From: a bacterium SCSIO 12741
GTDB lineage: Bacteria > Bacteroidota > Bacteroidia > Flavobacteriales_G > Salibacteraceae
DNA: 64,000 nucleotides
Assembly: GCA_024398055.1 (NCBI GenBank)
Contig: CP073749.1
Span: forward strand, 2,976,594 to 3,040,593
Reading direction: 5' to 3'
Below, piece by piece: positions 10,353-48,818 of this stretch. The position numbers and the translations under genes are program-made. The notes beneath the pieces were generated by a model. It was given only the letters and a program-made list of their open reading frames with translations, searched no databases and had not been told where the DNA came from. How positions within the stretch are numbered: the first letter of the stretch is position 1; every line of letters starts with the position of its first letter.

Positions 10353-10369
10353 AACGTTTTTCTTTGCAA

Positions 10370-25706: not shown

Positions 25707-25814
25707 AATTTGGGTTTTATAAATCTTTCCCACCCCTACAAGGCGTTTTCTAGGAATGTTGGGTTAAAATGAAATTTTTTTTGAGAAATATTTAATTGAT
25801 TGTCAGGTAGATAC

Positions 25815-25859: not shown

Positions 25860-25865
25860 GAATGT

Positions 25866-25921: not shown

Positions 25922-25922
25922 G

Positions 25923-28253: not shown

Positions 28254-28363
28254 TTTTGGTGAAGCTATCGACTTATACAAGCCTTCTTCTCCCGATGTTG
28301 GGTTTTCCAAATTAAAGTTGGAAAACGGTTTATATTTTGGACTTCTTTTCAATGTCATTTCTA

Positions 28364-29923
28364 TCAAAATCGGTAAAACAAACCTATTTGTGCACCCAGT
28401 GCATCGTACTTAAGATTGATGATTTCGTTGTCTTCATAGAGGTAGTTTAAGTTGGTTTTCCAGAACAGATCAGAGTATAATCCAAGTCGATTCCATTGGT
28501 ACTTTATTCGACCCTGAACCTGGTAGTTAAGCAATACCTTGCGGTAGCTGCCCGCTATCGGAGTAGGGACCTCGGTTCCGTTGTAGATCGATGGCATGGT
28601 TTGATTGCGGGTAAGTAGGCCCACAGAAACACCTGTCATCACACCAAATGTGAATCGCTTTTTACCGAACTCATATCCTACCATGAGTGGAATCTCAACG
28701 TAAGAATGGTTTAGACTAACCCGATGATCCAATTGATTGGTATCCTCAAATTCTACCAGTAATGTATCGGTGTTGGGAATGTAGGTGGAGTCCTCAATGC
28801 GATGGCTAATGGTGTCAATTCTTAAAATGGGTCCACTTGGATCATCGATAAATATGGAGTCATGTACTTCTACAATCACCTCACGAATAATCCATTTACC
28901 CTGATCTACCACAATGGATTTCTGGAGCGTCTCATACTGCTCGTAGGTGTAATCCAGATCGGTGTGATAGCTCTGGTAAAGCATTCCTGTGTTTACGAAA
29001 AACTGATTTCGATACAGAACAAGATCGAGTCCACCATTCTTGGTAATAATGGGCTCCTCGGATACCCGAATATTTGGATTGAGGGATTGGGTGATGGCGG
29101 GAAGGTTATAACTCGCCCCAAACTTGATTCCAATTCCCCAATTCCAGTCAGCAGGCTTTCTTGCCCGGTCCGCGCGACCGAAGCTACTATTAGCGTCATC
29201 AAACTCAGGCTGCTGGATTCCATTTTCCGGGAACAATCCAGGTCCACGAGATTGAAGTAGGAATATCCGGTCCGGTGAGATCATAAAGGTAGACTTACCC
29301 GCTCGATCGTTTGCCGCGACGATAGATTCCTCATGGTCCGTTTCGTCACTCTCAACAGCTGCAATAGCCACAGGGGTTGATGGTGAAGTTGAAGACGAGG
29401 ACGAAGATGACGGTGAAGGCACTGATGAGACTGATCTTTCAGGCTGCGTCGTATTGAATTCTTCTGGTGCTGCGACATTCGTTTCATCCGAATGATTCAT
29501 TTCTGTTTCATCCTGAGTTTTCGCCAGGGCATTCTTGGAGGCTGGGGGAGTAACCGGATTTGGATTTCCTGTTATTCCTGCATCCGAAGTTCCGGCAGCA
29601 ACACCCTTAGCCGAAGTAAAAACGGGTGTGGCCGAAGAAGCTGTAATCGGTAGATCCTCAATAATTCGATCACTACCAGATTCCATCGATTGCTCAGCAA
29701 GCAAAGGCTGATTCGAATCCATCCAATAGTAACCAGCCAAAGCCATTGTAGAGGAGAGCATCGCTCCCCAAAAGAGGTACAGGAAGAATCTCCTGTTGTT
29801 CCCTTTTTTCTTCTGGATATGATCTGCTGCATCCTGCCAATATTGATCTTGGTAGGGCGGATCGTACGCTTCGGCAGCCGTACGAAACAGATCATCCAGG
29901 TTAAAATTTTGCTCTTTTTCCAT
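28364..29923 (-). CDS. Putative dual membrane-spanning anti-sigma factor (Dma-like)
   Basis: The 519-residue protein has four parts: a charged cytoplasmic N-terminus (1-45), one membrane helix (about 46-67), a low-complexity Ser/Pro/Glu/Ala linker of about 190 residues with a poly-Ser run, and a C-terminal region (about 255-519) with beta-barrel character (WGIGIKFGASYNLP, YVEIPLMVGYEFGKKRFTFGVMTGVSVGLL) ending in the aromatic YRF typical of outer membrane barrels. It starts 2 bases after the ECF sigma gene. Anti-sigma factors with an inner-membrane helix, disordered periplasmic linker and outer-membrane barrel (Dma proteins) were described in Bacteroides thetaiotaomicron. By architecture and context this is one; sigma binding is inferred. 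An ordinary barrel protein with an uncleaved anchor is the alternative. Confidence 0.7.
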   Translation of the reverse strand: MEKEQNFNLDDLFRTAAEAYDPPYQDQYWQDAADHIQKKKGNNRRFFLYLFWGAMLSSTMALAGYYWMDSNQPLLAEQSMESGSDRIIEDLPITASSATPVFTSAKGVAAGTSDAGITGNPNPVTPPASKNALAKTQDETEMNHSDETNVAAPEEFNTTQPERSVSSVPSPSSSSSSSTSPSTPVAIAAVESDETDHEESIVAANDRAGKSTFMISPDRIFLLQSRGPGLFPENGIQQPEFDDANSSFGRADRARKPADWNWGIGIKFGASYNLPAITQSLNPNIRVSEEPIITKNGGLDLVLYRNQFFVNTGMLYQSYHTDLDYTYEQYETLQKSIVVDQGKWIIREVIVEVHDSIFIDDPSGPILRIDTISHRIEDSTYIPNTDTLLVEFEDTNQLDHRVSLNHSYVEIPLMVGYEFGKKRFTFGVMTGVSVGLLTRNQTMPSIYNGTEVPTPIAGSYRKVLLNYQVQGRIKYQWNRLGLYSDLFWKTNLNYLYEDNEIINLKYDALGAQIGLFYRF

Positions 29924-33405: not shown

Positions 33406-33417
33406 GAATTTTTCGCA

Positions 33418-33425
33418 CAAAAATA
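33418..33425 (-). promoter_or_regulatory. -7 box of the M3 peptidase gene
   Basis: On the minus strand TATTTTTG matches TAnnTTTG and ends 12 bases before the ATG at 33405. Confidence 0.5.
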
Positions 33426-33522: not shown

Positions 33523-36500
33523 ATGACTATGAAAAACTGGAAGTTTACCTGGACTCTGGTTGTGCTTTTGGCCTGGACCGCTTGTCACACCAATTTGCTT
33601 GCTCAAAAAGAAGCGAATTGGTGGTACTTTGGCATGAACGCCGGACTCGATTTTAATCCCGGATCACCACCCACTGGATACAGTAATGGGGCTATGACAC
33701 CTTTGGAAGGTTGCGCCTCAATTTCTCACCCAACTACGGGTGTACTTCAATTTTATTCCGATGGAATTAGTGTTTGGAATCGAAACCATGTCCAAATGGC
33801 CAATGGATTTGGATTGCAAGGAAATGCCTCGTCCTCTCACTCCGGAGTAATTGTTCCATTCGTGGGAAATCCAAACAAGTACTACTTGTTCACTGTTCCT
33901 GCCGGACCGTCGATTGGGGCGAAGTACTCGATAGTGGACATGACCCTAAATTCAGGTTTAGGCGATGTGGTAATCACTTCCAAGAATACCTCTTTGAGTA
34001 CCATTCCCGTTGCCGATAAGCTCAGCGCTATTGGGCATAAAAACGGAAAGGATATTTGGGTAACCATCCAAGATGATGGCAATTGGTCTCTTCATTCCTT
34101 CTTAATTACCAGTACAGGGGTTTCTACTACTCCGGTAATTTCTACGGTTTCCGGAGTTCCTGCTACCACCGTGGGGCATTATGGCTGTATGAAGTATTCC
34201 CCCAATGGAAAATTGCTATGTACCGTGGCCGGGAATCGCGACAACCTCATGATTTTCAATTTCGACAATGCCACTGGAGTATTGACCAATTTGGTAAATG
34301 TGTCCAACAACATTGATTACGATTTGATTTACGGGGTAGAGTTCTCTCCCAATTCAGAAAGGTTGTATATCTCCACTCGTTCCAAGGTTTATCAATTTGA
34401 TGTTTCTCTTCCAACGAGTGCGGCTATTCTGGCTTCCAGAGTAACGATTGCCAGTATTTCCACTCCGGTTTTTGCCCAAATGCAGTTGGCTCCGGATCAA
34501 AAAATCTACATTTCCCGACCTGGTCAATCCTATTTGTCCTTAATCAATGCGCCGGATTCCTTGGGTACAGCTTGTAACTACTCCGCCATCGGTTTCAATT
34601 TACCTTCTGGGGCTTCTTGTCGTTATGGGTTGCCAACTTTTATCCAATCGTTTTTCGAAACTACAGTCCTGTCAGTAGAAGATGCTTGTGATAGCCAATA
34701 CGTAAAGATCTCCGTAAAAGACACCAGTGCCCCAGATTCCGTTTACTACGATTATGGAGACCCCGCTTCGGGCTCAGCCAACTATTCCTGGAACCTGCTG
34801 GATAGTCACCAGTTTTCCACCTACGGCAAATTCTTAGTTACCGCCTTTGCATATTATACCGATAAACAAGGAAAGGTAGTTGTCGATACGCTTCTGGATA
34901 CCATTCATGTGGAACGCCCACCGGTGGTTTATCTGGCCAGCGATACCATGGTGTGTATATGGGACTCCTTATTTGCCAAAGTCACACAAACGAGTGATTT
35001 TGATCTCCTCTGGAGCGATAGCAGTACCGAGAATTATTACAAAATTGATACAACCGGAACCCTTTGGGTCACGGCGACCAATCGATGCGGAAGTTCGGTA
35101 GATACAGCCACGATTGATAGTCTATTCCTTCGATCCATAGATCTTGGGCCCGATACAACTTTATGTGTCGGTGATACCATATTCCTGGACGTTTCTGATA
35201 CCCTGGCCAGTTACCTCTGGTCGGATAGTTCCACCTCTCCCTATTTTGCCATAGATACGGGTGGATTGGTTTGGGCACAGATCACAAATGTGTGTGGTAT
35301 AAAACGGGATTCCATTAAAGTGGATAGGATTGATGTTCCCCATGTAGACCTGGGCCCGGATACCGTTGTTTGTTTATCCTCCAACTACATTTTGGGTGAT
35401 ATTCGGGAGGACTATACCCGATACACCTGGCACAACGGCTGGGTTAACATACCTCAAATTTGGGCCAATTCGACCGGCTTAAAGTGGTTGGAAAAAGAAA
35501 CCGATTGTGGAATTCATCGGGATTCGGCCTTCGTGGTGGTACAAAAACCACCTAAGGTAGATTTGGGTGCGGATACCCTTCTTTGTTTTGGAGATACCTT
35601 AACGCTTGCCGTTCTGGATTCACACATCACCATTGCCTGGCAAAACGGATCTTCTGATTCGATTCAAAAGGCCTTTGAGAAGAAAACCTATTGGGTGGAC
35701 ATTACTAATTCCTGTGGCAGTGCGAGCGATACCATTGAGGTAGATGTTCTCAAATCTCCGGTGGTGAAACTACCATCCGATACCGTACTCTGCCAAGGCG
35801 ATTCGCTTATGGTAGAAATGCCTAATCCTCAATCTACCTATGCCTGGAGTGATGGCAGTACGAAGCACTTCTTGAGAATCTCAAAACCCGGCATTTATTG
35901 GGGACGAGCAACCAACTTGTGTGGTTTTGCCCAGGATCAGTTTACCGTGAGTTACGACGATACGCTCCGAGCCGATTTAGGACCAGATACAATCCTGTGT
36001 GATGATCAGATGACCACCATTGGTGTGGTCTATCCAAATGGTCCAAACTATTTGTGGGACGACGGAGCTACTACCCCCAGAATTCAGGTGAATGCGGCGG
36101 GTACTTATCGGGTAACCATCTCTAATTCTTGCGGCTCTTCTACTTCTGAAAAGATCATTTACATGGACTATACTCCTGAACCCGATTTAGGACCAGACCA
36201 GTTCATTTGTAATGGGGAAGAGGTTATCCTTCGGACAGGAATTACCGAAGCAGATTTAGATCAATCTACCGTAAAATGGCAAAACCGCTATAAGCGAACG
36301 GAATTTGGTGTTTCGGAAGAAAATCAATGGTTTGTGGAAGTGGCCAATCATTGTGGAGTAGGTCGCGATACCATGAGACTTGGGGTGCATCCACTACCAC
36401 GAGTTGGACTTCCTCTGGATACAACATACTGCGATGGTCAATTTCTCATTGATCTAACTCGTCACAACTACGTATTGGAGTGGGAAGATGGATCCTCCGA

Positions 36501-36882
36501 AGACCAACGCGTCATTCAGGAACCTGGTGACTACATGTTGATCATGGAAGACGAAAACGGCTGTAAGAACATCGAGCGAATGACCGTGAAAGAATGCCCG
36601 GGAAAATTCTATTTCCCTAATGCCTTTTCACCCAACGACGATCAGCTCAACGATCGCTTCCGGGTCTTTAAAACCGATCTTTCTCATTTCCATATTCGGA
36701 TCTACAACCGGTGGAATGAGTTGGTCTACGAATCTCCTGACATCGAAGAAGGCTGGGATGGAACCCGAGGCGACAATCAAACCGATTGTCCGGTGGGGCA
36801 GTATGTCTTTAAAATCGAATTCCGGGAAGAGGCCAACGAACAAACACAGATTTTCACCGGTACCGTTTTTCTTGTTCGGTAG
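33523..36882 (+). CDS. Tandem surface protein paralog 1, T9SS type B
   Basis: About 1,119 residues with a signal peptide (LLAQ cleavage). Residues about 30-380 begin ANWWYFGMNAGLDF and contain propeller-like repeats (MKYSPNGKLLCTVAG, VEFSPNSERLYIST, MQLAPDQKIYIS). A PKD-like domain (YYDYGDPASG) is followed by eight Ig-like repeats of about 70 residues with consensus LGPDTxLCxGD...YxWSDGST...YWxxxTNxCG, two cysteines each. The last ~95 residues (FYFPNAFSPNDDQLNDRF to YVFKIEFREE) are a gliding-motility-associated C-terminal (CHU_C) T9SS type B domain. Its terminal ~300 bases are about 94% identical to those of paralog 2. Its signal peptide and promoter differ from those of paralogs 2 and 3. Ligand unknown. 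Confidence 0.88.
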   Translation: MTMKNWKFTWTLVVLLAWTACHTNLLAQKEANWWYFGMNAGLDFNPGSPPTGYSNGAMTPLEGCASISHPTTGVLQFYSDGISVWNRNHVQMANGFGLQGNASSSHSGVIVPFVGNPNKYYLFTVPAGPSIGAKYSIVDMTLNSGLGDVVITSKNTSLSTIPVADKLSAIGHKNGKDIWVTIQDDGNWSLHSFLITSTGVSTTPVISTVSGVPATTVGHYGCMKYSPNGKLLCTVAGNRDNLMIFNFDNATGVLTNLVNVSNNIDYDLIYGVEFSPNSERLYISTRSKVYQFDVSLPTSAAILASRVTIASISTPVFAQMQLAPDQKIYISRPGQSYLSLINAPDSLGTACNYSAIGFNLPSGASCRYGLPTFIQSFFETTVLSVEDACDSQYVKISVKDTSAPDSVYYDYGDPASGSANYSWNLLDSHQFSTYGKFLVTAFAYYTDKQGKVVVDTLLDTIHVERPPVVYLASDTMVCIWDSLFAKVTQTSDFDLLWSDSSTENYYKIDTTGTLWVTATNRCGSSVDTATIDSLFLRSIDLGPDTTLCVGDTIFLDVSDTLASYLWSDSSTSPYFAIDTGGLVWAQITNVCGIKRDSIKVDRIDVPHVDLGPDTVVCLSSNYILGDIREDYTRYTWHNGWVNIPQIWANSTGLKWLEKETDCGIHRDSAFVVVQKPPKVDLGADTLLCFGDTLTLAVLDSHITIAWQNGSSDSIQKAFEKKTYWVDITNSCGSASDTIEVDVLKSPVVKLPSDTVLCQGDSLMVEMPNPQSTYAWSDGSTKHFLRISKPGIYWGRATNLCGFAQDQFTVSYDDTLRADLGPDTILCDDQMTTIGVVYPNGPNYLWDDGATTPRIQVNAAGTYRVTISNSCGSSTSEKIIYMDYTPEPDLGPDQFICNGEEVILRTGITEADLDQSTVKWQNRYKRTEFGVSEENQWFVEVANHCGVGRDTMRLGVHPLPRVGLPLDTTYCDGQFLIDLTRHNYVLEWEDGSSEDQRVIQEPGDYMLIMEDENGCKNIERMTVKECPGKFYFPNAFSPNDDQLNDRFRVFKTDLSHFHIRIYNRWNELVYESPDIEEGWDGTRGDNQTDCPVGQYVFKIEFREEANEQTQIFTGTVFLVR
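36547..36845 (+). repeat. Conserved 3'-end block, copy 1
   Basis: This 299-base block coding for the end of the last repeat and the CHU_C domain differs from 40000-40298 at 17 positions by hand count (about 94% identity), mostly silent. Confidence 0.8.
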
Positions 36883-36928
36883 AATTTAGAATAATCTTTT
36901 AGGAGGTACCCAACCAAAGTGTTGACTT

Positions 36929-36948
36929 TCAGGTGTATTCTATTAACC
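36929..36948 (+). promoter_or_regulatory. Conserved upstream motif of paralog 2
   Basis: A TCAGGTGTATTCTATTAACC element whose relatives precede paralogs 3 and 4 (consensus TCAGGTrTATnCTAATAgC). It ends 27 bases before the ATG. It does not match TAnnTTTG and may be a non-housekeeping promoter or a regulator site. Confidence 0.5.
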
Positions 36949-37085
36949 AATAGTAATATCGGTTAACCAGCATTCATGCAAAGAGCGATTCAATTTTGGA
37001 TAAAGTGCCTTTGCTTTCTTTTATTAATAGGGGGTAGCACGGCAAATCTGAACGGCCAAAGGGAGGCAGACTGGTGGTATTTTGG
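36947..37085 (+). repeat. Duplicated promoter/signal-peptide block, copy 1
   Basis: 139 bases running from the upstream region through the signal peptide to the codons for WWYFG. It differs from 40403-40541 at only two positions; identity falls immediately afterwards. Confidence 0.9.
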
Positions 37086-40000
37086 GTCCAAAGCAGGCTT
37101 GCATTTTAATGGCTCATCGGCACCCATTGGCCAGAACAATGGAGCTATGCACGCTATTCTTGGATGTGCCTCTATTTCTCATCCAAAAACGGGAGTGCTC
37201 CAGTTTTATACAGATGGTCGAAGTGTTTGGAATCGAAACCACGCACAAATGGCTAATGGATACGGACTGCGAGCAAGTACAAGCATCTCCCAGACCGTAA
37301 TAATTGTTCCTTTTGTTGGAAACCCCAATAAGTACTATTTATTTACCATTGGCGGCACTGGCACTGTTTCAGGGTTAGATTATTCCGTGGTGGATATGAC
37401 ATTAAACTCAGGTTTGGGTGATGTTGTTGCGACTTCAAAGAGTACGCCCTTGGGCACAATTTTGGGACCTTGTAGACTCAGTGCAGTTAGACACAAAAAT
37501 GGGAAGGACATTTGGTTAACCGTCCAGGATGCTAATAATTGGTCTTTTCATTCCTTTTTGATAACCAGTACTGGTGTCTCAAATGTTCCCGTCATTTCAC
37601 CAGTCACGGGTGTACCAACACCTCATGCAGGTAATCACGGTTGTATAAAGTTTGCCCCAGATGGAAAGCTCCTTTGTGCTACAGCTGGTATCCGTGCTAA
37701 CCTGATGTTGTTCCATTTTGATAATTCAACTGGAGTCTTGACCAACTTAGTGAATGTTACCGATTCCTTGGATTATTTCCTGGTGGATGGGGTAGAGTTT
37801 TCGCCCAATTCTGAGGTATTGTACATAAGCACTCGCACTAAAATCTATCAATTTGATGCATCCCTTTCTACCAGCGCTGCTATTCTCGCTTCACGGAAAA
37901 CAATTGCAACTACAAATGTTCCGCATTTTACTCAAATGCAACTGGCTTCCAACCGCAAGATTTATATATCCAGACCCGCTCAATCTTATTTATCGGCAAT
38001 TGATGACCCTGATTCCTTAGGTCTGGCTTGCAATTTTACCGGTATCGGCAGTTCACTGCCTTCTGGAGCAGTTTGTAGGTGGGGACTTCCAACCTTTATT
38101 CAATCGTTTTTTGCACCAGTCTTTGATATAGAAGATGCCTGTGATAGCCAATATGTCAAGATTTCGATTAGTGATACCTCTGGCCTTGACTCAGTTTTCT
38201 ACAACTATGGGGATCCTTCCACTGGTTCTGCGAATTACTCCTGGAATGTGTTGGATAGTCACAGGTTTTCGACTTATGGTAAATTCTTGGTGACGGCCTT
38301 TGCCTACTTTACGGATAAACAAGGACAAGTTGTGGTGGACACCCTCTCCGATACGATTCATATTGAACGTCCCCCCATGATCTATTTGGCCAGTGATACG
38401 ATGGTTTGCTCTGGGGATACGCTTTTTGCCAAAATCACCCAAACCAAGGACTATAATCTGTTGTGGAGTGACAGCAGTATCGTAAACTATTACAAAGTTG
38501 ATACCCCAGCTACTGTTTGGCTTAAAGCTACTAATCGATGTGGAAGTTCAACAGATACGACTACAGTGGACAGTTTATTCCTTCGATCGATCAATCTGGG
38601 TCCGGATACCACTCTCTGTGTAGGAGACACGATTTTTCTCGATGTCTCCGATACCTTAGCGACCTATCTGTGGTCAGATAGTTCCACAGGACCTTATTTT
38701 GAAATTGATTCTGGTGGGTTGTTCTGGGCTCAGGTTACCAATGTTTGCGGTATAAAACGAGATTCTATTCAGGTGGATACCATCGATGTTCCGCAGGTAG
38801 ACCTAGGTCCGGATACCGTTGTTTGTTTATCCTCCAACTACATTTTGGGTGATATTCGAGAGGATTATACTCGATATACCTGGTACAATGGTTGGGTTAA
38901 TGTTCCGCAGATATCGGCCAAATCAAGCGGGTTAAAGTGGTTGGAAAAAGAAACCGATTGTGGGGTTCATAGAGACTCAGTTTACCTTATTGTTCAGCAC
39001 CCTCCTGTGGTAAATTTAGGGCCGGATACCTTGATTTGTTTGGGTGACACGCTAAATCTACATATCCCTGATTCTCATATTACGATTAACTGGCAAAACG
39101 GAACTTCGGACTCCATGCAAAAAGCCTTTGAAAAAAAGACCTATTGGGCGAATATTACCAATAGCTGTGGAAGTGCCAGGGATTCAATCGAGCTGGATAT
39201 ACTCAAATCACCCGTCGTTAAATTGCCATCCGACACGATTCTTTGTCAAGGTGATTCCTTGATGGTGCAAATGCCTAATCCCGTATCCACCTACGTATGG
39301 AGTGATGGAAGTACACGACATTTTTTAAGGGTGTCCAAACCTGGAGTGTATTGGGGGAGAGCTACGAATATTTGCGGTTTCGATCAGGATCAATTTACCT
39401 TGAGTTATGATGATACCCTTCGAGCCGATTTAGGTCCCGATACTACCCTGTGTGATGATCAAATGACAACCATTGGAGTCATATACCCCAATGGGCCAAG
39501 TTACTTATGGGACAATGGAGCCCAAACTCCTCGAATCCAGGTTAACTCCGCTGGTATTTACCGGGTAACCATTTCAAATACTTGTGGTTCTACCACTACT
39601 GACAAAGTGATTCACATGGATTACACTCCCGACCCTGATTTAGGTGCAGATCAGGCCATTTGCTTGGGTGATGAAATAATCCTTAGAACCGGAATGACCG
39701 AAGCCGAATTGAATCAATCCAGGGTGAAATGGCAAAATCGTTACCAGCGAACCGAGTTTGCGGTATCTGAGCAAAACCAATGGTTTGTGGAAGTAGCCAA
39801 TCATTGTGGAGTGGGCCGGGACACCATGCGATTGGAGGTGAATTCTCTACCCCATGTTGGGTTGCCAAAGGATACGACTTATTGCGACGGTCAATTTTTA
39901 ATAGATCTATCCCGGTTTAACTACCAGGTCGAATGGGAGAACGGCTCTTTGGATGAACAACGGTCTATTTATGAAGCTGGAGACTACATCTTATTCATAG

Positions 40001-40335
40001 AAGACGAAAACGGCTGTGAGAACATCGAGCGAATGACCGTGAAAGAATGTCCTGGAAAATTCTATTTCCCCAATTCCTTTTCACCCAACGACGATCAGCT
40101 CAACGACCGTTTCCGGGTCTTTAAAACCGATCTTTCTCATTTCCATATTCGGATCTACAATCGCTGGAATGAATTGGTCTACGAATCTCCTGACATCGAA
40201 GAAGGCTGGGATGGAACCCGAGGTGACAACGAAACCGATTGCCCGGTAGGGCAGTATGTCTTTAAAATCGAATTTCGGGAAGAGGCTAACGAACAAACTC
40301 AGGTTTTTACAGGAAGCCTATTACTGATTCGATAG
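36976..40335 (+). CDS. Tandem surface protein paralog 2, T9SS type B
   Basis: 1,119 residues with the same architecture as paralog 1: signal peptide (about 1-27), READWWYFGSKAGLHF-type propeller region, PKD-like domain (FYNYGDPSTG), eight Cys-containing Ig-like repeats and a CHU_C type B sorting domain. It is a mosaic: the first ~35 codons and upstream DNA are nearly identical to paralog 3, while the third Ig repeat (48 identical bases at 38811-38858 and 35358-35405) and the sorting domain match paralog 1. This pattern is expected of tandem duplication with gene conversion or unequal crossing-over. Each protein should be exported by T9SS and attached at the surface. Confidence 0.88.
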   Translation: MQRAIQFWIKCLCFLLLIGGSTANLNGQREADWWYFGSKAGLHFNGSSAPIGQNNGAMHAILGCASISHPKTGVLQFYTDGRSVWNRNHAQMANGYGLRASTSISQTVIIVPFVGNPNKYYLFTIGGTGTVSGLDYSVVDMTLNSGLGDVVATSKSTPLGTILGPCRLSAVRHKNGKDIWLTVQDANNWSFHSFLITSTGVSNVPVISPVTGVPTPHAGNHGCIKFAPDGKLLCATAGIRANLMLFHFDNSTGVLTNLVNVTDSLDYFLVDGVEFSPNSEVLYISTRTKIYQFDASLSTSAAILASRKTIATTNVPHFTQMQLASNRKIYISRPAQSYLSAIDDPDSLGLACNFTGIGSSLPSGAVCRWGLPTFIQSFFAPVFDIEDACDSQYVKISISDTSGLDSVFYNYGDPSTGSANYSWNVLDSHRFSTYGKFLVTAFAYFTDKQGQVVVDTLSDTIHIERPPMIYLASDTMVCSGDTLFAKITQTKDYNLLWSDSSIVNYYKVDTPATVWLKATNRCGSSTDTTTVDSLFLRSINLGPDTTLCVGDTIFLDVSDTLATYLWSDSSTGPYFEIDSGGLFWAQVTNVCGIKRDSIQVDTIDVPQVDLGPDTVVCLSSNYILGDIREDYTRYTWYNGWVNVPQISAKSSGLKWLEKETDCGVHRDSVYLIVQHPPVVNLGPDTLICLGDTLNLHIPDSHITINWQNGTSDSMQKAFEKKTYWANITNSCGSARDSIELDILKSPVVKLPSDTILCQGDSLMVQMPNPVSTYVWSDGSTRHFLRVSKPGVYWGRATNICGFDQDQFTLSYDDTLRADLGPDTTLCDDQMTTIGVIYPNGPSYLWDNGAQTPRIQVNSAGIYRVTISNTCGSTTTDKVIHMDYTPDPDLGADQAICLGDEIILRTGMTEAELNQSRVKWQNRYQRTEFAVSEQNQWFVEVANHCGVGRDTMRLEVNSLPHVGLPKDTTYCDGQFLIDLSRFNYQVEWENGSLDEQRSIYEAGDYILFIEDENGCENIERMTVKECPGKFYFPNSFSPNDDQLNDRFRVFKTDLSHFHIRIYNRWNELVYESPDIEEGWDGTRGDNETDCPVGQYVFKIEFREEANEQTQVFTGSLLLIR
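40000..40298 (+). repeat. Conserved 3'-end block, copy 2
   Basis: Partner of 36547-36845; the two encode nearly the same sorting domain, with most differences silent. Confidence 0.8.
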
Positions 40336-40384
40336 ACTTTAGTTTTATTTGTGAATGGGGGTTACCCAACCAAAAGGTTGATTT

Positions 40385-40404
40385 TCAGGTGTATCCTAAT
40401 AGCC
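40385..40404 (+). promoter_or_regulatory. Conserved upstream motif of paralog 3
   Basis: TCAGGTGTATCCTAATAGCC, 27 bases before the ATG, same position as before paralog 2. Confidence 0.5.
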
Positions 40405-40541
40405 AATAGTAATATCGGTTAACCAGCATTCATGCAAAGAGCGATTCAATTTTGGATAAAGTGCCTTTGCTTTCTTTTATTAATAGGGGGTAGCACGGCA
40501 AATCTGTACGGCCAAAGGGAGGCTGACTGGTGGTATTTTGG
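40403..40541 (+). repeat. Duplicated promoter/signal-peptide block, copy 2
   Basis: Partner of 36947-37085 with 137 of 139 bases identical by hand count. Confidence 0.9.
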
Positions 40542-43500
40542 AAAAAAAGCCGGTTTGCATTTCAACGGTAATGCAGCGCCTATTGGCCAAAACAATGGGG
40601 CGATGTCTCCTCTGGAAGGTTGCGCTTCCATCTCCAACCCCCTTACCGGAGCTCTTCTTTTTTATACCGATGGAATCCAGGTATTTAATCGCAATCATCA
40701 GCAAATGGGTAATGGATTTGGGCTTTTAGGACATTCTTCCGCCTCTCATTCTGCCGTAATTGTTCCTTTTATTGGAAACCCCAATAAATATTATGTGTTT
40801 ACCGTACCGGCCAACCCTACCATCGGTGCTCATTATTCGATTGTGGATATGACCTTGAATAATGGCCTTGGGGATGTGGTGGCAATAGGTAAAAACACAA
40901 TTATAAATCCTACTCCAAATTTTCAGGTTTCCGATAAATTAAGTGCCGTTAGTCATGCCAATGGAAGGGATGTTTGGGTAGTTATACAAAACGAAATGAC
41001 CTGGGATTTTTATGCCTATTTGGTCACCAGTGCTGGGGTTTCCACAACACCGGTGATTTCCACTGCTTCGAGAAGCGGTTGGGGAGGAGTAGGGCATTAT
41101 GGCTGTATGAAGTTTTCCCCAGATGGAAAATTTCTATGTGCCGTCGCAGGTAGTAATGATAACTTGAAAATAATGTCCTTTAATAGTTTAACTGGAAAGG
41201 CTCTACCCTTGGTGGATGTGACAAGTTCATTGCATTACGATTTTATCTACGGGGTGGAATTTTCGCCCAATTCCAAATTATTATACATCTCCATTCCTGG
41301 CCGCATCTACCAATTTGACTTGACGCTTTCGAATAGCGCTGCGATACAAAATTCCCGAACAATTATTGGAACCATATCAGGTTCAGGATTATTTGCTCAG
41401 ATGCAGTTGGCTCCAGACAAAAAGATCTACATCGCCCGGCCGGGAAAAAATTTCCTTTCTCGAATAGATTTTCCGGATTCTGCTGGAACAGCATGTAATT
41501 ACGTGAGCAACGCGGCAACTCTTCCCTCAGGAGCCTATTGTGAATATGGTTTACCTACATTCATTCAATCCTTTTTCGAAACCACCGACTTCGACGTTCA
41601 AAATGCCTGCGATGGGCAGTATGTTAAGATTGCCCTAAAGGATGCCAATTTAGTCGATTCGGTCTACTATGATTATGGCGATCCAAGTACCGGAGCATTG
41701 AACAATTCCTGGAATCCGCTGGATAGCCACTTCTTTTCCAGGGCAGGGAAGTTTAAGATTACTGCACACGCTTACTACACCGATGGATTTGGAAGAGTCT
41801 ACATCGATACCCTTTACGATTCCATAGACATTAAACTTCCTCCAATAGTCAGTTTACCGGGAGATACCATTCTATGTGCCTGGGATTCCATTGAGGCCAA
41901 GATTAGTCAAACCACGAATTATTCCTTGCTCTGGGGAGATAGTAGTACGGGCAACTTTTTGCCAATTGATTCTGCAGGAACCTATTGGGTAACTGCACGG
42001 AATCATTGCGGTCAATCATCTGATACCGTTGAGGTGGATAGCCTTCTCCTACGCCATATTGATTTAGGTCCGGATACCTTGTTTTGTGTGGGCGATACCC
42101 TTCGATGGGATCTTTCCGATACGCTGGCCACCTACCTTTGGTCCGATGGATCTACGACCCCTTTATACGAAGCCGATACCACCGAAACGATTTGGGCAGA
42201 AGTGTCCAATTTTTGTGGCGTAAAACGGGATACTATTCTCGTTGAACGTGTCCCAATGCCTCATACCGATTTGGGATCGGATACGGCCGTTTGCATCTAT
42301 TCAAATTTTGTGTTGGGCAGCTCCCGTGAACCCTGGATGTCTTATGTATGGCATACCGGACAAGTGGATACATCACAAGTGATAGCCAACAAATCGGGAT
42401 GGTATTGGTTGGAAAAATCCACCCTTTGTGGTGCTCATCGGGATTCGGTACGAATCATTGTTCAAGATTCACTTCAACTCAACCTGGGTAATGATACGCT
42501 CATTTGTTTTGGAGATACCCTTCATTTCCACATTCCGGATTCACCGGCAACTGTTACCTGGCAAGATGGAGCGACAACCTCCAGATACCTGGCGTTTGAA
42601 ACCAAGACCTACTCCGTGGAGGTAATGAATACTTGTGGATTTGCCTGGGATACACTCAATCTTACAGTGCTTAAACCACCTGTGGTTGATCTCCCTTCGG
42701 ATACGGCTATTTGCCAAGGCGACACCCTCTGGTTAGATATCTCTAATCCACTTTCCACCTATGCCTGGAGTGATGGAAGCACCAACCCGACCTTCGCCTT
42801 ATTCAAGCCTAGTACCTATTGGGGACAGGCAACAAACCTTTGTGGGGTTGATCAGGGGCAGGTCAATTTTGCATTAGATATTTCCTTATCCCTCAATCTG
42901 GGTGGAGATACCATTCTGTGCGACGATGCCTTTATCGAATTGGGTCAGAATTTTCCAAATCGACCGAAGTATCATTGGAGTACAGGAGCCAAATCTGCCA
43001 AGATTCAAGTGAACGCTGCCGGAACTTATAGACTAACTGTTACCAATAGTTGCGGGTCCTACCGTTCGGAGCGAAACGTTACCATGCAATATTCTCCAGA
43101 CCCGTACTTGGGGCCGGATCAACTCATTTGTGCAGGAGAGGAATGGGAACTTACCACTGGAATGACCGAAAGCGAGCTGTTGTACTCAACCGTTACCTGG
43201 CAACACAAACACGTTCAAGAGACCTTTAGGGTCAACGAATCCAAGGATTGGATAGTGGAGGTTCAAAACTATTGCGGAATAGGTTATGACACCTTCAACC
43301 TCCATGTTGAGCCACTCCCCAAGGTTCGGTTGCCGCTGGATACCCTGTATTGTGACGAACCATTTTACATTGATTTGACTTCCTACCCGTATTATCTGGA
43401 ATGGGAAGATGGTTCGAACGATAACATGCGTTGGATTGATCAACACGGAGATTATCAGCTGTTGGTTCGAGATGACCATGGCTGTGAAAATTACCTTCCC

Positions 43501-43803
43501 TTGAATATCAAGAGATGCCCGAATGAATTCTATTTCCCGAATAGCTTTACACCCAATCGGGATCAGGTAAATGATCGTTTTCGGGTTTTTAAAGCGGACT
43601 TGATAAATTTTGATATTCAGATATTTAACCGCTGGAATGAACTCATTTATGAATCGGGTGACATAGAGGAAGGTTGGGACGGGACCCGTATGGATAATGG
43701 TACTGAATGCCCCGTGGGACAGTACTTGTGGAAGGTAGAGTTTAAGGAAGATTACAACCATCAAACCCAAGTTTTAACTGGCCAGGTATATTTAATTCGA
43801 TAA
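40432..43803 (+). CDS. Tandem surface protein paralog 3, T9SS type B
   Basis: 1,123 residues. The signal peptide differs from that of paralog 2 at one residue only (TANLYGQ against TANLNGQ). The rest has the same order: propeller-like region (WWYFGKKAGLHF), PKD-like domain (YYDYGDPSTG), eight Ig-like repeats with paired cysteines and a CHU_C domain (FYFPNSFTPNRDQVNDRF). The repeats are clearly more diverged from paralogs 1 and 2 than those are from each other. Role in adhesion, gliding or surface coat is possible, none is shown. Confidence 0.88.
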   Translation: MQRAIQFWIKCLCFLLLIGGSTANLYGQREADWWYFGKKAGLHFNGNAAPIGQNNGAMSPLEGCASISNPLTGALLFYTDGIQVFNRNHQQMGNGFGLLGHSSASHSAVIVPFIGNPNKYYVFTVPANPTIGAHYSIVDMTLNNGLGDVVAIGKNTIINPTPNFQVSDKLSAVSHANGRDVWVVIQNEMTWDFYAYLVTSAGVSTTPVISTASRSGWGGVGHYGCMKFSPDGKFLCAVAGSNDNLKIMSFNSLTGKALPLVDVTSSLHYDFIYGVEFSPNSKLLYISIPGRIYQFDLTLSNSAAIQNSRTIIGTISGSGLFAQMQLAPDKKIYIARPGKNFLSRIDFPDSAGTACNYVSNAATLPSGAYCEYGLPTFIQSFFETTDFDVQNACDGQYVKIALKDANLVDSVYYDYGDPSTGALNNSWNPLDSHFFSRAGKFKITAHAYYTDGFGRVYIDTLYDSIDIKLPPIVSLPGDTILCAWDSIEAKISQTTNYSLLWGDSSTGNFLPIDSAGTYWVTARNHCGQSSDTVEVDSLLLRHIDLGPDTLFCVGDTLRWDLSDTLATYLWSDGSTTPLYEADTTETIWAEVSNFCGVKRDTILVERVPMPHTDLGSDTAVCIYSNFVLGSSREPWMSYVWHTGQVDTSQVIANKSGWYWLEKSTLCGAHRDSVRIIVQDSLQLNLGNDTLICFGDTLHFHIPDSPATVTWQDGATTSRYLAFETKTYSVEVMNTCGFAWDTLNLTVLKPPVVDLPSDTAICQGDTLWLDISNPLSTYAWSDGSTNPTFALFKPSTYWGQATNLCGVDQGQVNFALDISLSLNLGGDTILCDDAFIELGQNFPNRPKYHWSTGAKSAKIQVNAAGTYRLTVTNSCGSYRSERNVTMQYSPDPYLGPDQLICAGEEWELTTGMTESELLYSTVTWQHKHVQETFRVNESKDWIVEVQNYCGIGYDTFNLHVEPLPKVRLPLDTLYCDEPFYIDLTSYPYYLEWEDGSNDNMRWIDQHGDYQLLVRDDHGCENYLPLNIKRCPNEFYFPNSFTPNRDQVNDRFRVFKADLINFDIQIFNRWNELIYESGDIEEGWDGTRMDNGTECPVGQYLWKVEFKEDYNHQTQVLTGQVYLIR

Positions 43804-43858
43804 CCGGCGGTTTTTTGCTCGAAAATTCGGATATTACACCAAACCAAAGTCGTGGTTA

Positions 43859-43878
43859 TCAGGTATATACTAATAGCA
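43859..43878 (+). promoter_or_regulatory. Conserved upstream motif of paralog 4
   Basis: TCAGGTATATACTAATAGCA, ending 32 bases before the ATG, in otherwise diverged upstream DNA, which suggests functional constraint. Confidence 0.5.
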
Positions 43879-43910
43879 TCGCGGTGTGAATAATGGGATA
43901 GTCAGCATTC

Positions 43911-46900
43911 ATGCACAAAACGTATCAAGTATGGGTTAGGTTTTTTTGTTTCCTACTGCTTGTAGGAGGCATGGTAACTGCGTATGGCCAAAGGCAAGCA
44001 AACTGGTGGTATTTTGGAAATCACGCTGGGTTGGATTTTACCTTGGGCTCTGCTACAGGTGTGGCCAATGGTGCACTACGAACCACCGAAGGATGCGCCA
44101 CCATTTCTGACCCCAATACGGGCCAACTTCAATTTTATACGGATGGTACTTCGGTTTGGAATCGAAATCACACTTTAATGCCGAATGGAACCGGTTTGAT
44201 GGGACATTCTTCTTCCTCTCACTCCGCCATCATTGTTCCTTTTCCCTCTAATCCCAATCGCTATTATTTATTCACCGTTCCTACTATGCCCAGCGGTGGA
44301 GCACGTTATTCCATCGTAGACATGTCCTTCGCCGGAGGATTGGGTGACGTAGTGATTAATAGCAAAAACAGACCTTTGAGCAGTATTCCTGTTCCCGATA
44401 AAATCGCGGCAGTGAGGCATGCCAATGGCCGCGACTTTTGGGTGGTGATTCAGCACAATACCACTTGGGATTTGTACGCCTATCTTATCGATTCAAGAGG
44501 TGTTTCAACAACGCCCGTTATAACTCCTATTTCTGCTCCCGTATTGGGACCTGTGGGGCACATCGGATGTATTAAGTTTTCACCCGATGGAAGCCAGCTT
44601 GCTACCTTTAGTTCCAATCGTGTGCTCACCCTGGCCAACTTTAATGCCGGCACAGGTACCTTTACTCAAATTCGTCATAACCAAGGAGTTCCTGGTACCG
44701 GTTATGGAATTGAATTTTCAGCCAATTCCCGTGTTCTCTATGCAGGAAATACCCAGGATATTTATCAATTTGATACTCAAGCCGGAACGGCATCTCAAAT
44801 CTGGGCGAGCAGGGTCAAGATTCCAGGACCAGGAAGCGTAAGCATTGGCCAGCTTCAATTGGGCCTTGATCGTAAAATTTATTTAGCTCAAATGACTTCG
44901 CGACAGTTGGGAGTTATTCATTTTCCGGATCGCTTGGGTTTGGCTTGTACTTTTAGTCCCAATGGAGTGAGCATTCCCGGCACGGCTCAGAGTCAATACG
45001 GTTTGCCCACTTTTGTTCAGTCTTTCCTTGACGTACCGGAGATTCTGATAAAAGGTGCCTGTGAAAATGGGTTTACCACTGTTTCTATCGTTAATCCAAA
45101 TTCCGCTGATTCGGTTTATTACGACTACGGTGACACGCTTTCGGGAGTTAATAATTACTCTACTCATGCCATCGATTCTCATCAATACAATCAAGCCGGA
45201 CCGTATTTAATCACCGCCATTGCCTGGTATACGGTCAATGGCCAAGTAGTGGTAGATACTTTTCGGCAAATGGTTCAGATAACGCCCATCCCTCAACTAA
45301 ATGTTACTCAAGACACGCTCTTTTGCCGCGAAGATTCGATTTGCATTTCGGTGTTGAACACATCGGCGTATTCTGTTTTATGGATGGATAGCTCTACCTC
45401 GTCCTGCTTAACCATTGATACGGCTGGGGCCTATTGGGTAGAAGCCATCAACGAGTGTGGTGTGAGCCGCGATACGGTGCATGTGGATAGTCTTTTTCAG
45501 CGCTCACTGGACTTAGGACCGGATCTTCCCCTGTGTCCATCTGACACGGTGGAACTCGTGATACGAGATACCATGGGAAACTATTTGTGGAGTACCCAGG
45601 AAACCGACTCGTTGATTCAGATCACACAAGCGGGAACTTATTGGGCGCTGAGCAACAATCAATGTGGATTGAAAAGTGATACGATTCGAGTTTATGATTT
45701 GGATCCTCCCGAAGTAGATTTAGGCGGCGATACTGCATTTTGCGGAGGAACCTGGTACGTATTGGATGCTCATTGGCCTGGTTCAAGTTATTTGTGGCAC
45801 GATGGAAACCGACACAATTACCGCCACTGGGCTCGAACTACTGGACTTAAATGGGTAGAGGTAACCAATGCCTGCGGTGTGGCCTCAGATAGCGCTTATA
45901 TTGAGGTACATCACCCCTTGTTTTTTGATTTGGGTCCGGATAGTGTGCTTTGCGAGGGAGATAGTATTCACTTGAAACCCTTTATTGGATTTGGAAACAT
46001 CCTTTGGAGCGATTCGTCCTCCGAGAAAACGATACAAATTAAGAAACCCGGCACCTGGTGGCTACAAGTCACTAACCTTTGTGGTTCCCGTTCCGATACG
46101 ATCCACTTTCGTAACGAATCGGCCCCGGAGGTGGTATTCCCGTCAGATACCGTTCTGTGTATGGGGGAGGGGCTTACCCTTTCTCTGGACAGTCCGTCAA
46201 CGGCATTTGCCTGGAGTACAGGTGATACCGGGTATTCTATTTATGTTCAAAACCCCGGGTTGTATTGGGGGAAAACAGCAAACGAATGCGGTATAGCCTC
46301 TGATAGCCTTCAGGTTTATGTAGACGTTCCGTTAAAACCTACCCTAGGCTCAGATACCACGCTGTGTGAAGGTCAGCAGTTTTCCATGGGATTCCAATTC
46401 CCGAATAATCCTGGATACCTCTGGAATACGGGTGAAACAAGCTCCCACATTCAGGTGGCTTCTGAAGGGGTTTATTCCGTTACCATTAGCAATGCCTGCG
46501 GACCTTATACGGCCCACCGCCGAGTAGATCCATATTACAAACCTGTTATTGAAATTGGGGCCGATACCATTCTCTGTTTTGGAAAATCATTGCTTTTGAA
46601 AAGCGGCCTTTCTATGGCAGATATGAAATATACTGATCTGGTATGGAATGGATCTTACGCCAACAAGGAATGGGTGGCTGCTGAATCCGGAGAACACTTC
46701 CTGGAAGCTACCAACCGCTGTGGAACTGCCCGAGACACCATGGTATTGAGCTACTTCGATCCTATTCACCCTCATTTGCCAGAAGACACCGGACGATGCG
46801 AAGAAATAATTCTACCCACCTGGCATCCTGAAGGGCATCGCTACTACTGGTTTCATAATGGAGATTCCATCGCTGATGAACTTCGAAGCTATCGCTATAC

Positions 46901-47240
46901 TTTGGTGGATAATCACGGATGTCAACAAGAGTTTTCGTTAGAATTGGTAGACTGTCCCTACCAATTCTATTCTCCCAGTGCTTTTACACCCAATAGTGAT
47001 CCTCATAATCCCACTTTCAAGGTTTATTTAACCGGTGGGTATGATTATCACCTCACGGTATTGAACCGTTGGAATGAGGTTGTTTTTGAAAGCTATGAAA
47101 CTGAACAAGGGTGGGATGGGATTCGCCAGGATAATGAAACTCATTGCCCTGATGGTGTATACGTATGGAAGCTTTCCTTCCGCAACGATTTTGACGACCA
47201 ACTCATTCATCAAACCGGCCAGGTAACTTTGTATCGTTAA
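43911..47240 (+). CDS. Tandem surface protein paralog 4, T9SS type B
   Basis: 1,109 residues, the most diverged member of the array. It keeps the signal peptide (about 1-26), the QANWWYFGNHAGLDF start of the propeller region, a PKD-like YYDYGDTLSG domain and eight Ig-like repeats. The sorting domain is altered at its start (FYSPSAFTPNSDPHNPTF in place of FYFPN-F-PN-D-NDRF), but retains LNRWNEVVFES, EQGWDG and the terminal strands. It may have a somewhat different sorting behaviour. No array gene is frameshifted. Confidence 0.86.
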   Translation: MHKTYQVWVRFFCFLLLVGGMVTAYGQRQANWWYFGNHAGLDFTLGSATGVANGALRTTEGCATISDPNTGQLQFYTDGTSVWNRNHTLMPNGTGLMGHSSSSHSAIIVPFPSNPNRYYLFTVPTMPSGGARYSIVDMSFAGGLGDVVINSKNRPLSSIPVPDKIAAVRHANGRDFWVVIQHNTTWDLYAYLIDSRGVSTTPVITPISAPVLGPVGHIGCIKFSPDGSQLATFSSNRVLTLANFNAGTGTFTQIRHNQGVPGTGYGIEFSANSRVLYAGNTQDIYQFDTQAGTASQIWASRVKIPGPGSVSIGQLQLGLDRKIYLAQMTSRQLGVIHFPDRLGLACTFSPNGVSIPGTAQSQYGLPTFVQSFLDVPEILIKGACENGFTTVSIVNPNSADSVYYDYGDTLSGVNNYSTHAIDSHQYNQAGPYLITAIAWYTVNGQVVVDTFRQMVQITPIPQLNVTQDTLFCREDSICISVLNTSAYSVLWMDSSTSSCLTIDTAGAYWVEAINECGVSRDTVHVDSLFQRSLDLGPDLPLCPSDTVELVIRDTMGNYLWSTQETDSLIQITQAGTYWALSNNQCGLKSDTIRVYDLDPPEVDLGGDTAFCGGTWYVLDAHWPGSSYLWHDGNRHNYRHWARTTGLKWVEVTNACGVASDSAYIEVHHPLFFDLGPDSVLCEGDSIHLKPFIGFGNILWSDSSSEKTIQIKKPGTWWLQVTNLCGSRSDTIHFRNESAPEVVFPSDTVLCMGEGLTLSLDSPSTAFAWSTGDTGYSIYVQNPGLYWGKTANECGIASDSLQVYVDVPLKPTLGSDTTLCEGQQFSMGFQFPNNPGYLWNTGETSSHIQVASEGVYSVTISNACGPYTAHRRVDPYYKPVIEIGADTILCFGKSLLLKSGLSMADMKYTDLVWNGSYANKEWVAAESGEHFLEATNRCGTARDTMVLSYFDPIHPHLPEDTGRCEEIILPTWHPEGHRYYWFHNGDSIADELRSYRYTLVDNHGCQQEFSLELVDCPYQFYSPSAFTPNSDPHNPTFKVYLTGGYDYHLTVLNRWNEVVFESYETEQGWDGIRQDNETHCPDGVYVWKLSFRNDFDDQLIHQTGQVTLYR

Positions 47241-47312: not shown

Positions 47313-48818
47313 ATGCGATACGATGTTTGCGTTATTGGGGGAGGACCTTCGGGCATCGCAGCAGCCATGCGATCCATCGATTTAGGAAAAAAAGTACTAC
47401 TCATTGAGAAACACAAAGTGGGTGGTGCCGGAGTTTTTAACGGAGCCCTTTCTTCCAAAACCCTATGGGAACTATCCGAGAATTACAAAATTGCCAAATC
47501 CAATAAATACGGGTACTACGTATTTGACAGCGAGCTTGATTTTCGCACCGTTATTGGCGAAATGCACAAAGCGGAGAACGAAAAGCATACCCAGATAATG
47601 GAGCAAATTGAGGACCTCGAAAAAATGGAGGCCATTCGATTTATCCGGGGCACAGCCAAGCTTCTTGACCGGAATACCGTACAGGTTGAGTTGAAAGATG
47701 GGATCATCGTAGAGTATGAAGCCGACAACATCATTCTCGCTGTGGGTAGCAGACCCAGATACCTTCCTAACATTCCGATTGATGAAAAAACCATCATGAC
47801 CAGTGACGGGATCAGCTCTTTGGAAGATTTCCCAAAGAGTATCGTGATTTTGGGTGCCGGTGTGATTGGATGTGAATTTGCTACCATCTTCTCCAACTTT
47901 GGAAAAACGAAAGTCTATCTCATTGATAAAGCGGATCGAATCCTGCCATTTGAAGATGATGATATTGCTTCCATGGTTACGAGTAATCTGGAAGAAAATG
48001 GCGTTCGTGTACACCGCAACAGCAGTTTGAAGTCCATGGAGATTGTGGATGGAAAAGTGCAATATGTACTGGAGTACAAGGACGGTCGGACCGAAACCCG
48101 CACTGTAGAAAAAGCACTTATATCGGTTGGACGGATTCCCAATGTCGAGAATCTGGGTCTAAAGGAAGTTGGAATGAAATTGGACGGTCGTGGATTTGCA
48201 GAAGACGAGGACACCCAGACTTCCATTCCCAACATCTATGCAGTAGGTGACTTTACCGCTGATATTGCTTTGGTAAACATTGCTGAAATGGAAGGGCGGT
48301 ATGCCGCCGAGCGGATTGCGGGTAATATTACCTCGCCCATGCATTACAACAACATTTGTACGATCATGTTCCTCAATCCTGAGGTTGCAGGAGTTGGAAA
48401 AAATGAACAACAATGCAGGCAAGAGGGCACTCCCTATAAAATGGCTTTGATGAGTTACCGTTACGTAAATAGAGCCATTGCCAAGAGGAAAACACAAGGC
48501 TTCTTCAAAATTCTGGTCACCGATGACGAGGACATGAAGATTCTCGGAATGCGTGCCATTGGAGATCAAGCCTCATCTACCATCGAGTCTGTTGGTTTGA
48601 TGATTGCCCTGGATCGAAGCGTGCACGACCTGGCCAATTTGATTTTTCCTCATCCTGCCATCACTGAAGGACTTCAGGAATGCGCTCGTATGCTACTTGG
48701 CAAATCCATTATTAAACCAAGTACAATGAACTTACACCTCAAGTGTTATCGGTTTACCAAGGAAGGGGAGATTCAGGATTTGTTTATGACCGGATTGGCT
48801 GAAGAAAACACTAATTAG
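47313..48818 (+). CDS. Dihydrolipoamide dehydrogenase-like flavoprotein without the redox disulfide
   Basis: The 501-residue protein has the fold of class I pyridine nucleotide-disulfide oxidoreductases: FAD motif VIGGGPSGIAAA (7-18), NAD(P) motif ILGAGVIGCEFA, second FAD motif IPNIYAVGDFT, and dimer interface with HPAITEGLQE. The active-site stretch that reads GGTCLNVGCIPSK in normal enzymes is GGAGVFNGALSSK here (37-49), so both redox cysteines are replaced (G40, A45) while the C-terminal His-Glu pair remains. It cannot act as a normal lipoamide or glutathione reductase. Soluble transhydrogenase (SthA) lacks one of these cysteines, so hydride transfer between nucleotides or to a quinone is conceivable. 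No dehydrogenase-complex genes lie nearby. Confidence 0.88.
   Translation: MRYDVCVIGGGPSGIAAAMRSIDLGKKVLLIEKHKVGGAGVFNGALSSKTLWELSENYKIAKSNKYGYYVFDSELDFRTVIGEMHKAENEKHTQIMEQIEDLEKMEAIRFIRGTAKLLDRNTVQVELKDGIIVEYEADNIILAVGSRPRYLPNIPIDEKTIMTSDGISSLEDFPKSIVILGAGVIGCEFATIFSNFGKTKVYLIDKADRILPFEDDDIASMVTSNLEENGVRVHRNSSLKSMEIVDGKVQYVLEYKDGRTETRTVEKALISVGRIPNVENLGLKEVGMKLDGRGFAEDEDTQTSIPNIYAVGDFTADIALVNIAEMEGRYAAERIAGNITSPMHYNNICTIMFLNPEVAGVGKNEQQCRQEGTPYKMALMSYRYVNRAIAKRKTQGFFKILVTDDEDMKILGMRAIGDQASSTIESVGLMIALDRSVHDLANLIFPHPAITEGLQECARMLLGKSIIKPSTMNLHLKCYRFTKEGEIQDLFMTGLAEENTN

Follow-up and report, generated by a model that had tools for sequence, protein, structure and literature searches.

The four-gene array and its predicted proteins

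The window analyzed here is a 64,000-nucleotide stretch of the single-contig, 5.10 Mb genome of bacterium SCSIO 12741 (Bacteroidota; Salibacteraceae; GenBank assembly GCA_024398055.1, contig CP073749.1, positions 2,976,594 to 3,040,593), and it holds a tandem array of four genes, p1 to p4 (paralogues 1 to 4), for predicted cargo proteins of the type IX secretion system (T9SS) (Table 1). All four reading frames are open and encode proteins of 1109–1123 amino acids (aa), with spacers of 93, 96, and 107 bases between successive genes; p1 and p2 are 76% identical at the amino acid level, and p3 is 57–58% identical to both. Gene conversion probably homogenizes the stalk and sorting domains of these adhesin-like proteins while distinct heads persist. 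The claim made for the window is one of conversion tracts, and that made for the family is one of polarized concerted evolution.

An initial annotation of the window, made from the sequence alone, described four tandem T9SS type B genes with a propeller, a PKD domain, eight Cys-paired repeats, and CHU_C, and this architecture is borne out by reading frames, domain profiles, cysteine pairs, and predicted fold. CHU_C (PF13585) scores above cut-off in 4/4 proteins and the type B sorting profile TIGR04131 in 3/4, p4 reaching 29.8 bits against a cut-off of 35, such that the array proteins carry the C-terminal CHU_C/TIGR04131 domain that identifies T9SS type B cargo. Their N-termini are hydrophobic as judged by eye (candidate signal peptides). 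Each stalk has eight regularly spaced Cys pairs. With the borders of the immunoglobulin (Ig)-like repeats set by us on p2, the best cross-protein match is the repeat of the same number in 75 of 96 cases, and all 21 misses involve p4; shuffling of Ig repeats was rejected as the main process on these counts. In all four proteins CHU_C is the only Pfam domain above cut-off, and the head region matches no Pfam family above cut-off; the fibrillar-adhesin features are thus stalk-like repeats and an anchor, joined to a head that has no recognized Pfam adhesive domain. A PHROGs scan of two of the four proteins gave no match at E 0.01, and promoter-like sites (sigma-70 type only) and terminator-like sites were not above shuffled controls.

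The head probably adopts a seven-bladed beta-propeller fold, as judged from a model predicted from six sequences (pLDDT 74.5, pTM 0.73), with the blade number taken from structural matches rather than counted on the model. Among beta-propeller matches, the highest Z was obtained with 4qrj (Z 24.9, rmsd 3.4 over 298 residues), and 7bid, a 7-bladed designed protein, gave Z 22.6. The first-ranked Foldseek match was 1L0Q, an archaeal S-layer protein with a YVTN propeller followed by PKD (VIA Z 24.4); the VIA rmsd of 16.1 over both domains indicates a similar domain order and not one rigid match. To our knowledge, 1L0Q is an S-layer protein with no T9SS. Searching PDB sequences with the head profile yielded weak partial matches only (best E 0.0005), and the model of stalk plus tail was poor (pLDDT 44.3, pTM 0.26). 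Variation among heads is not clearly located in loops (majority fraction 0.60 in strands and 0.55 in loops). Fold likeness alone carries no function for the propeller head.

Conversion tracts within the array

The initial annotation had also pointed out that p2 and p3 share 137 of 139 bases across promoter and signal peptide, and that p1 and p2 are ~94% identical over 299 bases of the sorting domain; both statements are correct (Table 1). The identical p1/p2 tract that it placed in the third Ig repeat likewise exists, but is 50 bp long rather than 48. Because the window genus is represented by one genome, conversion in the array was judged by permutation and by synonymous sites. The polymorphic sites of the four-sequence alignment were permuted 5000 times, and the procedure was repeated on third codon positions. 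With all sites, the p2/p3 5′ run and segment had 0 hits, as did the p1/p2 3′ segment, and the longest p1/p2 run had 1; with third positions only, the corresponding hits were 0 for p2/p3, 0 for the p1/p2 segment, and 9 for the longest p1/p2 run. Both sets of tracts exceed their permutation controls. The remaining pairs were not significant when allowing for six pairs (best p3/p4 with 250 and p1/p3 with 302 of 5000), and p4 has no exact tract of at least 24 bases in common with any other copy.

Divergence was estimated pairwise by the Nei–Gojobori method (NG86), for which many values are saturated outside the tracts. Synonymous divergence (dS) is 0 in the p2/p3 N-terminal segment and is reduced in the Ig3 and sorting-domain tracts of p1/p2 (Table 1). 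Exchange can account for this low synonymous divergence, and protein constraint cannot easily do so. Recombination in the window is local and pairwise: the 5′ tract is confined to p2/p3 and the 3′ tract to p1/p2, with p4 involved in neither of them. The earlier proposal of mosaic conversion with homogenized ends is therefore upheld as regards conversion (by permutation, dS, the trees of relatives, and one polarized event described below), but the exchange is pairwise and not array-wide.

Table 1. Genes of the array, high-identity tracts, and slot borders in the window (positions in the 64,000-nucleotide stretch).
Feature	Position	Strand	Description	Basis or occurrence
p1	33523..36882; ORF start 33517/33523	+	N-terminal signal-like segment, propeller, PKD, 8 Ig-like repeats, CHU_C	ORF, domain profiles, Cys pairs
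p2	36976..40335	+	Architecture as p1	ORF, CHU_C/TIGR04131, Cys pairs, head fold
p3	40432..43803	+	Architecture as p1	ORF, CHU_C/TIGR04131, Cys pairs
p4	43911..47240	+	Architecture as p1; most divergent (41–44% aa identity to other three)	ORF, CHU_C, Cys pairs; TIGR04131 below cut-off
p2 converted tract (leader and N-terminal segment)	36947..37085	+	137/139 identical to p3	104 bp exact
p3 partner of 5′ tract	40403..40541	+	137/139 identical to p2	
p1 Ig3 tract	35356..35405	+	50 bp identical to p2	p1/p2 dS of Ig3 0.85
p2 partner of Ig3 tract	38809..38858	+	50 bp identical to p1	
p1 sorting-domain segment	36547..36845	+	282/299 (94.3%) identical to p2	dS 0.39 vs 2.2 for whole gene
p2 partner sorting-domain segment	40000..40298	+	282/299 identical to p1	
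M3-type peptidase (Dcp/oligopeptidase A-like; under both curated cut-offs)	31381..33420	-	Left slot border	Also in G032, G031, G026
Dihydrolipoyl dehydrogenase-like flavoprotein (TIGR01350 386.6 of 408.8 bits)	47313..48818	+	Right slot border	Also in G032, G031, G008

Polarity of identity in related arrays

Relatives show a polarity that differs from the contrast of ends and middle in the initial annotation, namely a divergent N-terminal head against a shared stalk and anchor. Among 43 same-array pairs from 15 loci (the six pairs of the window included), mean amino acid identity is 0.48 in the head, 0.64 in the stalk, and 0.79 in the tail; the tail exceeds the head in 39/43 pairs and the stalk exceeds the head in 35/43. 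The exceptions for the tail are three window pairs with p4 and one G019 pair with copies 3 kb apart. This set omits array genes that are shorter than 700 aa or whose heads are incomplete (the short copies of L085 and L090 and a 677-aa copy in L047), and the L096 copies are counted as one array although 3 kb apart. Dispersed copies within the same genome have a mean tail identity of 0.37 (60 pairs), and none of them reaches 0.75, compared with 33/44 same-array pairs that do. For pairs matched for head identity (0.40–0.65), tail identity is 0.77 in arrays (37 pairs) vs. 0.38 for dispersed copies (32 pairs; Mann–Whitney p 4e-12), and with heads matched and lengths within 30 residues it is 0.78 (34 pairs) vs. 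0.44 (11 pairs, two genomes). The tail comparison omits genes of up to 650 aa and a broken piece at L039, and includes the L047 pair. In an orthologue control (G031/G032), identity is 0.79 in head and stalk and 0.89 in the tail, with no step between head and stalk. The transition is displayed by the G019 array, where nucleotide identity is 0.34–0.64 through most of the propeller and 0.81–1.00 from within the first Ig repeat onward, and dS is at least 2.2 in the head, 0.21–0.62 in the stalk, and 0.14–0.17 in the tail.

Trees for the genus g7 agree with this polarity. With the near-twins G013 and G011 removed, the nearest neighbour of a gene lies in its own genome for 1/19 heads, 12/19 stalks, and 15/19 tails (1, 8, and 11, respectively, for all 25 genes). 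Heads group across genomes, and stalk plus tail groups by genome in 5/7 arrays (G019, G021, and G020 each at 100/99, G017 at 91/92, G009 at 87/85). In approximately unbiased (AU) tests, uniting the three heads of G019, G021, or G009 was rejected (p <1e-30 for each of the three arrays tested), and the head pairing G019_2511+G009_12794 was rejected for stalk plus tail. A reciprocal conflict occurs independently in the G030 C7 array: the heads reject C7a+C7b (p 0.0008), and the region from Ig5 to CHU_C rejects C7b+C15 (p 0.0011), as does Ig1–4 weakly (p 0.045).

One exchange can be polarized. G020 and its near sister G013 both carry four copies, orthologous between the two genomes, and copies 2 and 3 of G020 have 170 exact bases in common in the stalk/sorting region. 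Over this tract, G020 copy 3 agrees with its own orthologue in 136/170 positions and with the orthologue of copy 2 in 152/170, the same value as copy 2 against its own orthologue; upstream, both copies keep normal orthology (0.874 and 0.859). Because copy 3 matches the orthologue of copy 2 better than its own and is orthologous upstream, copy 2 was the donor. When every pair among the four copies was scanned in G020 and in G013, the only windows whose paralogue identity was over 0.9 and higher than that to either orthologue lay in the C-terminal stretch of this one pair; here, paralogues are closer than orthologues over part of the gene.

Several observations weigh against homogenization of stalk and anchor as a general account. 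A 44th same-array pair (L047) has a tail less conserved than its head (0.46 vs. 0.51), and among the window pairs the tail exceeds the head in 3/6 and the stalk exceeds the head in 1/6. The p2/p3 tract lies at the 5′ end, outside the polarity, and p1 and p2 are sisters in head, Ig1–4, and stalk-plus-tail trees, which is why the window shows no tree conflict. Stalk plus tail groups across genomes in 2/7 g7 arrays (G010, G014), and the G027 copies are sisters in all parts, again with no conflict. Synonymous sites in the stalk are near saturation in arrays of G027, G030 C7, and G009, so that the exchanges there are old and could be old chimaeric duplications. As for sampling, dispersed pairs come from four genomes only (31 from G030, 15 from G000, 8 from G014, and 6 from G019), pairs are not independent, most relatives are multi-contig assemblies, and tree p-values are optimistic because groups were named after the first trees.

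Conserved slot and distribution of the family

The array occupies a slot between a peptidase and a dehydrogenase-like gene (Table 1). Both borders are present in G031 and G032, with two genes each; in G026 the peptidase border is followed by a gene within which the contig ends, and G008 has two genes and the dehydrogenase border. Uniform divergence along the genes and identical copy number and sequence in all relatives, either of which the initial annotation would have taken as evidence against its reading, are not what we find: divergence is non-uniform, and the same slot holds four copies here, two in G031 and G032, and at least two in G008. Sequence comparison shows a conserved slot with varying copy number and recombination between neighbours that is, in relatives, concentrated in stalk and anchor.

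The first of the two slot genes in G031 and in G032, as well as a gene on G026 C38, encodes an IgGFc_binding (PF17517) head on a PKD–Ig–CHU_C body; genes of this kind are at L041 6012–9530, L042 5962–9489, and L048 5443–9006, and two of these occupy the slot that holds the array in the window. With a head profile built from 13 hand-chosen rows, at least one head at E ≤ 1e-40 was found in 36/42 genomes searched for the order; the number per genome ranges from 0 to 15, and there are several tandem runs. A scan of genome contigs gave one locus, DIYJ01000009.1, in a Flavobacteriales assembly. In genus g7, 7/9 array loci are flanked by an ABC ATPase on one side and a PadR regulator on the other and hold 2 to 4 full copies; the families of the flanking genes are those seen in G020 only. 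We take the ATPase to be of ABC-F type because it has two ABC_tran stretches and an ABC_tran_Xtn.

Outside the array, the genome has a fifth gene closely related to the family (L039 4568–7900; G000:C1:1526570–1529885, - strand), ~50–59% identical to p1/p2; it is broken by two reading-frame shifts, which may reflect either a decayed gene or sequencing errors. Two neighbouring copies in G014 C32 (L090 2204–7733) have 926 exact bases in common from mid-propeller into the stalk, consistent with either recent conversion or assembly collapse, and short or interrupted copies within an otherwise intact array of G009 C30 (L085 2596–7640) are possibly decayed members.

Alternative explanations

Head swapping, by which new heads recombine onto a constant stalk–anchor and stalks are alike because the head was replaced, would explain the IgGFc_binding heads on PKD–Ig–CHU_C bodies, and also the G030 copy C7b, whose head groups with the dispersed C15 and whose tail groups with C7a. 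We nevertheless consider it unlikely, as in the polarized G020 event it was the tail that was transferred, with both heads remaining orthologous, and the G020/G013 scan places paralogue-like windows only in the C-terminal stretch of one pair. Alternatively, copies may have been born chimaeric through partial tandem duplication by unequal crossing-over, with no repeated conversion. The near-saturated stalk sites of the G027 and G030 C7 arrays would accord with this, but tracts of different age occur in one pair (in p1/p2, Ig3 and the sorting domain are recent and the rest is old), and the 170-bp event in G020 is interior, with orthologous flanks; we regard such an origin as improbable.

Antigenic or phase variation, in which selection would diversify the heads and expression would alternate between copies, was how the initial annotation read the diversified middles. 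Tandem surface-protein genes with mosaic tracts are what such a system would contain, and the head branch of p2 is longer than that of p1. However, amino acid identity of p1/p2 (0.758) exceeds their nucleotide identity (0.727), and nonsynonymous divergence (dN) is 0.16 against a dS of 2.2 (NG86), so dN/dS is far below 1; for propeller heads of six orthologue pairs (G020/G013, G010/G011), it is 0.02–0.07. These sequence-based pairwise averages, with which selection on a few sites would be compatible, indicate that purifying selection dominates, and not DIVERSIFYING selection. The array has no homopolymer of at least 8 A/T or at least 7 G/C, no short tandem repeat of the kinds scanned, and no convincing invertible repeat (inverted repeats within 4 kb are only 16–25 nt and 71–94% complementary), and all four frames are open. 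With purifying selection dominant and no repeats of the phase-variation type detected, the data do not support antigenic variation: pairwise NG86 estimates gave no positive selection on the exposed part, and the scans gave no switching repeats. We reject antigenic or phase variation as very improbable; differences in ligand specificity between stably kept heads are possible. Constraint alone, by which the sorting domain and N-terminal segment would merely be under stronger selection with no recombination, has in its favour that the sorting domain is also the best-conserved part between orthologues (0.89 vs. 0.79), but it is rejected as scarcely credible given that the tracts show full or almost full identity at synonymous sites and that dispersed copies with the same sorting function have tail identities of 0.38, or 0.44 when lengths match.

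Proposed mechanism

Under gene conversion with persistence of heads, the array genes would encode adhesin-like surface proteins exported by the T9SS, each with a beta-propeller head, a PKD neck, a stalk of eight Cys-paired Ig-like repeats, and a sorting/anchoring domain of type B. Tandem duplication in the conserved slot would have given rise to the four genes, and homologous recombination between neighbours then copies stretches of stalk and anchor, as the sequences show. The heads, which would already be too divergent to recombine easily, persist as distinct, individually conserved lineages, as is seen in relatives; each head may bind a different ligand. Purifying selection may keep the sorting domain similar enough for RecA-dependent exchange, which would make the 3′ zone self-reinforcing. 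In the window, this process is visible only as the short tracts of p1/p2 and p2/p3.

Export offers a possible reason for the shared tails. According to passages of the papers cited, type B sorting domains have PorP/SprF shuttles as their partners, and a single shuttle can serve several domains that are alike (PMC12618676, PMC9143113); a linked shuttle gene is common but not required, and orphan type B cargo has been described (PMC12618676). PorP/SprF (PF11751) has 12 matches in the genome, none of them beside the array and the nearest ~144 kb away. As similar sorting domains can share a shuttle, one shared shuttle is a plausible, predicted reason for the shared tails, and all copies may go through one PorP/SprF shuttle to a common site on the surface. 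The related arrays resemble a lasting collection of distinct probes fitted to a common mount, rather than a shape-shifting immune-evasion system. We tentatively put forward a wider proposal, which we hold to be possible rather than probable: that T9SS arrays with constant anchors and variable heads across the order are convergent with clustered protocadherins, in that ancient head lineages have different ligands, conversion continually re-matches stalk and sorting domain to one PorP/SprF shuttle, and new heads would be automatically export-compatible.

Other predicted T9SS cargo in the window

The window also encodes proteins with Por_Secre_tail sorting domains. Two adjacent proteins at 22890–28367 (- strand) contain ten and eight PKD stretches and are adjoined by an outer-membrane barrel gene (28364–29923); two neighbouring proteins of ~1390 aa are encoded at 5585–14437 (+ strand), both with Por_Secre_tail matches, of which that in the first is just below cut-off, and the second with a Sortilin-Vps10 match as well; and a protein at 53650–56472 (+ strand) carries SprB repeats.

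Comparison with known systems

The comparisons that follow likewise draw on passages of the papers cited. The array proteins share the CHU_C/TIGR04131 sorting domain with T9SS type B cargo and SprB-like adhesins (PMC9143113, PMC12618676), although adhesion is only predicted here. In Flavobacterium johnsoniae, three orphan type B sorting domains share one shuttle (PMC9143113, PMC12618676), and the window array is likewise without an adjoining PorP/SprF gene. The head–stalk–anchor layout is that of fibrillar adhesins, for which CHU_C is named as an anchor in 134 Bacteroidetes proteins (PMC8286594); the main text of that paper does not contain the word “propeller,” and the array head matches no Pfam family above cut-off. 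As with hagA, rgpA, and kgp of Porphyromonas gingivalis, Bacteroidota surface proteins are varied by recombination, but there the adhesin domains are repeated and strains exchange alleles (PMC5266723), whereas here heads are kept and stalk and anchor are common to neighbours. The het-d/het-e NWD genes of Podospora also combine beta-propeller recognition modules with concerted evolution of a family; unlike the arrays, in which the propeller escapes exchange, their propeller repeats are homogenized and positively selected (PMC1805685).

Among the literature matches listed, there was no report of T9SS arrays of this kind. The pairing of type B sorting domains with shuttles is fairly specific (PMC12618676), and these arrays bear on the question of how a small number of shuttles can serve large families of cargo. 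Arrays with a homogenized sorting domain but distinct heads constitute a natural experiment, from which it may be predicted which cargos share a shuttle, and they illustrate that mosaic arrays of surface genes need not imply immune evasion. In the clustered protocadherins of fish, tandem surface adhesion genes have 3′ ectodomains homogenized by regional gene conversion and diverged N-terminal ectodomains that are used for orthology (PMC1852091). These vertebrate proteins are unrelated, and the same paper cites diversifying selection on mammalian variable ectodomains (PMC1852091), which is not seen in the arrays; with these differences, the arrays are a bacterial counterpart of the regional conversion described for protocadherins.

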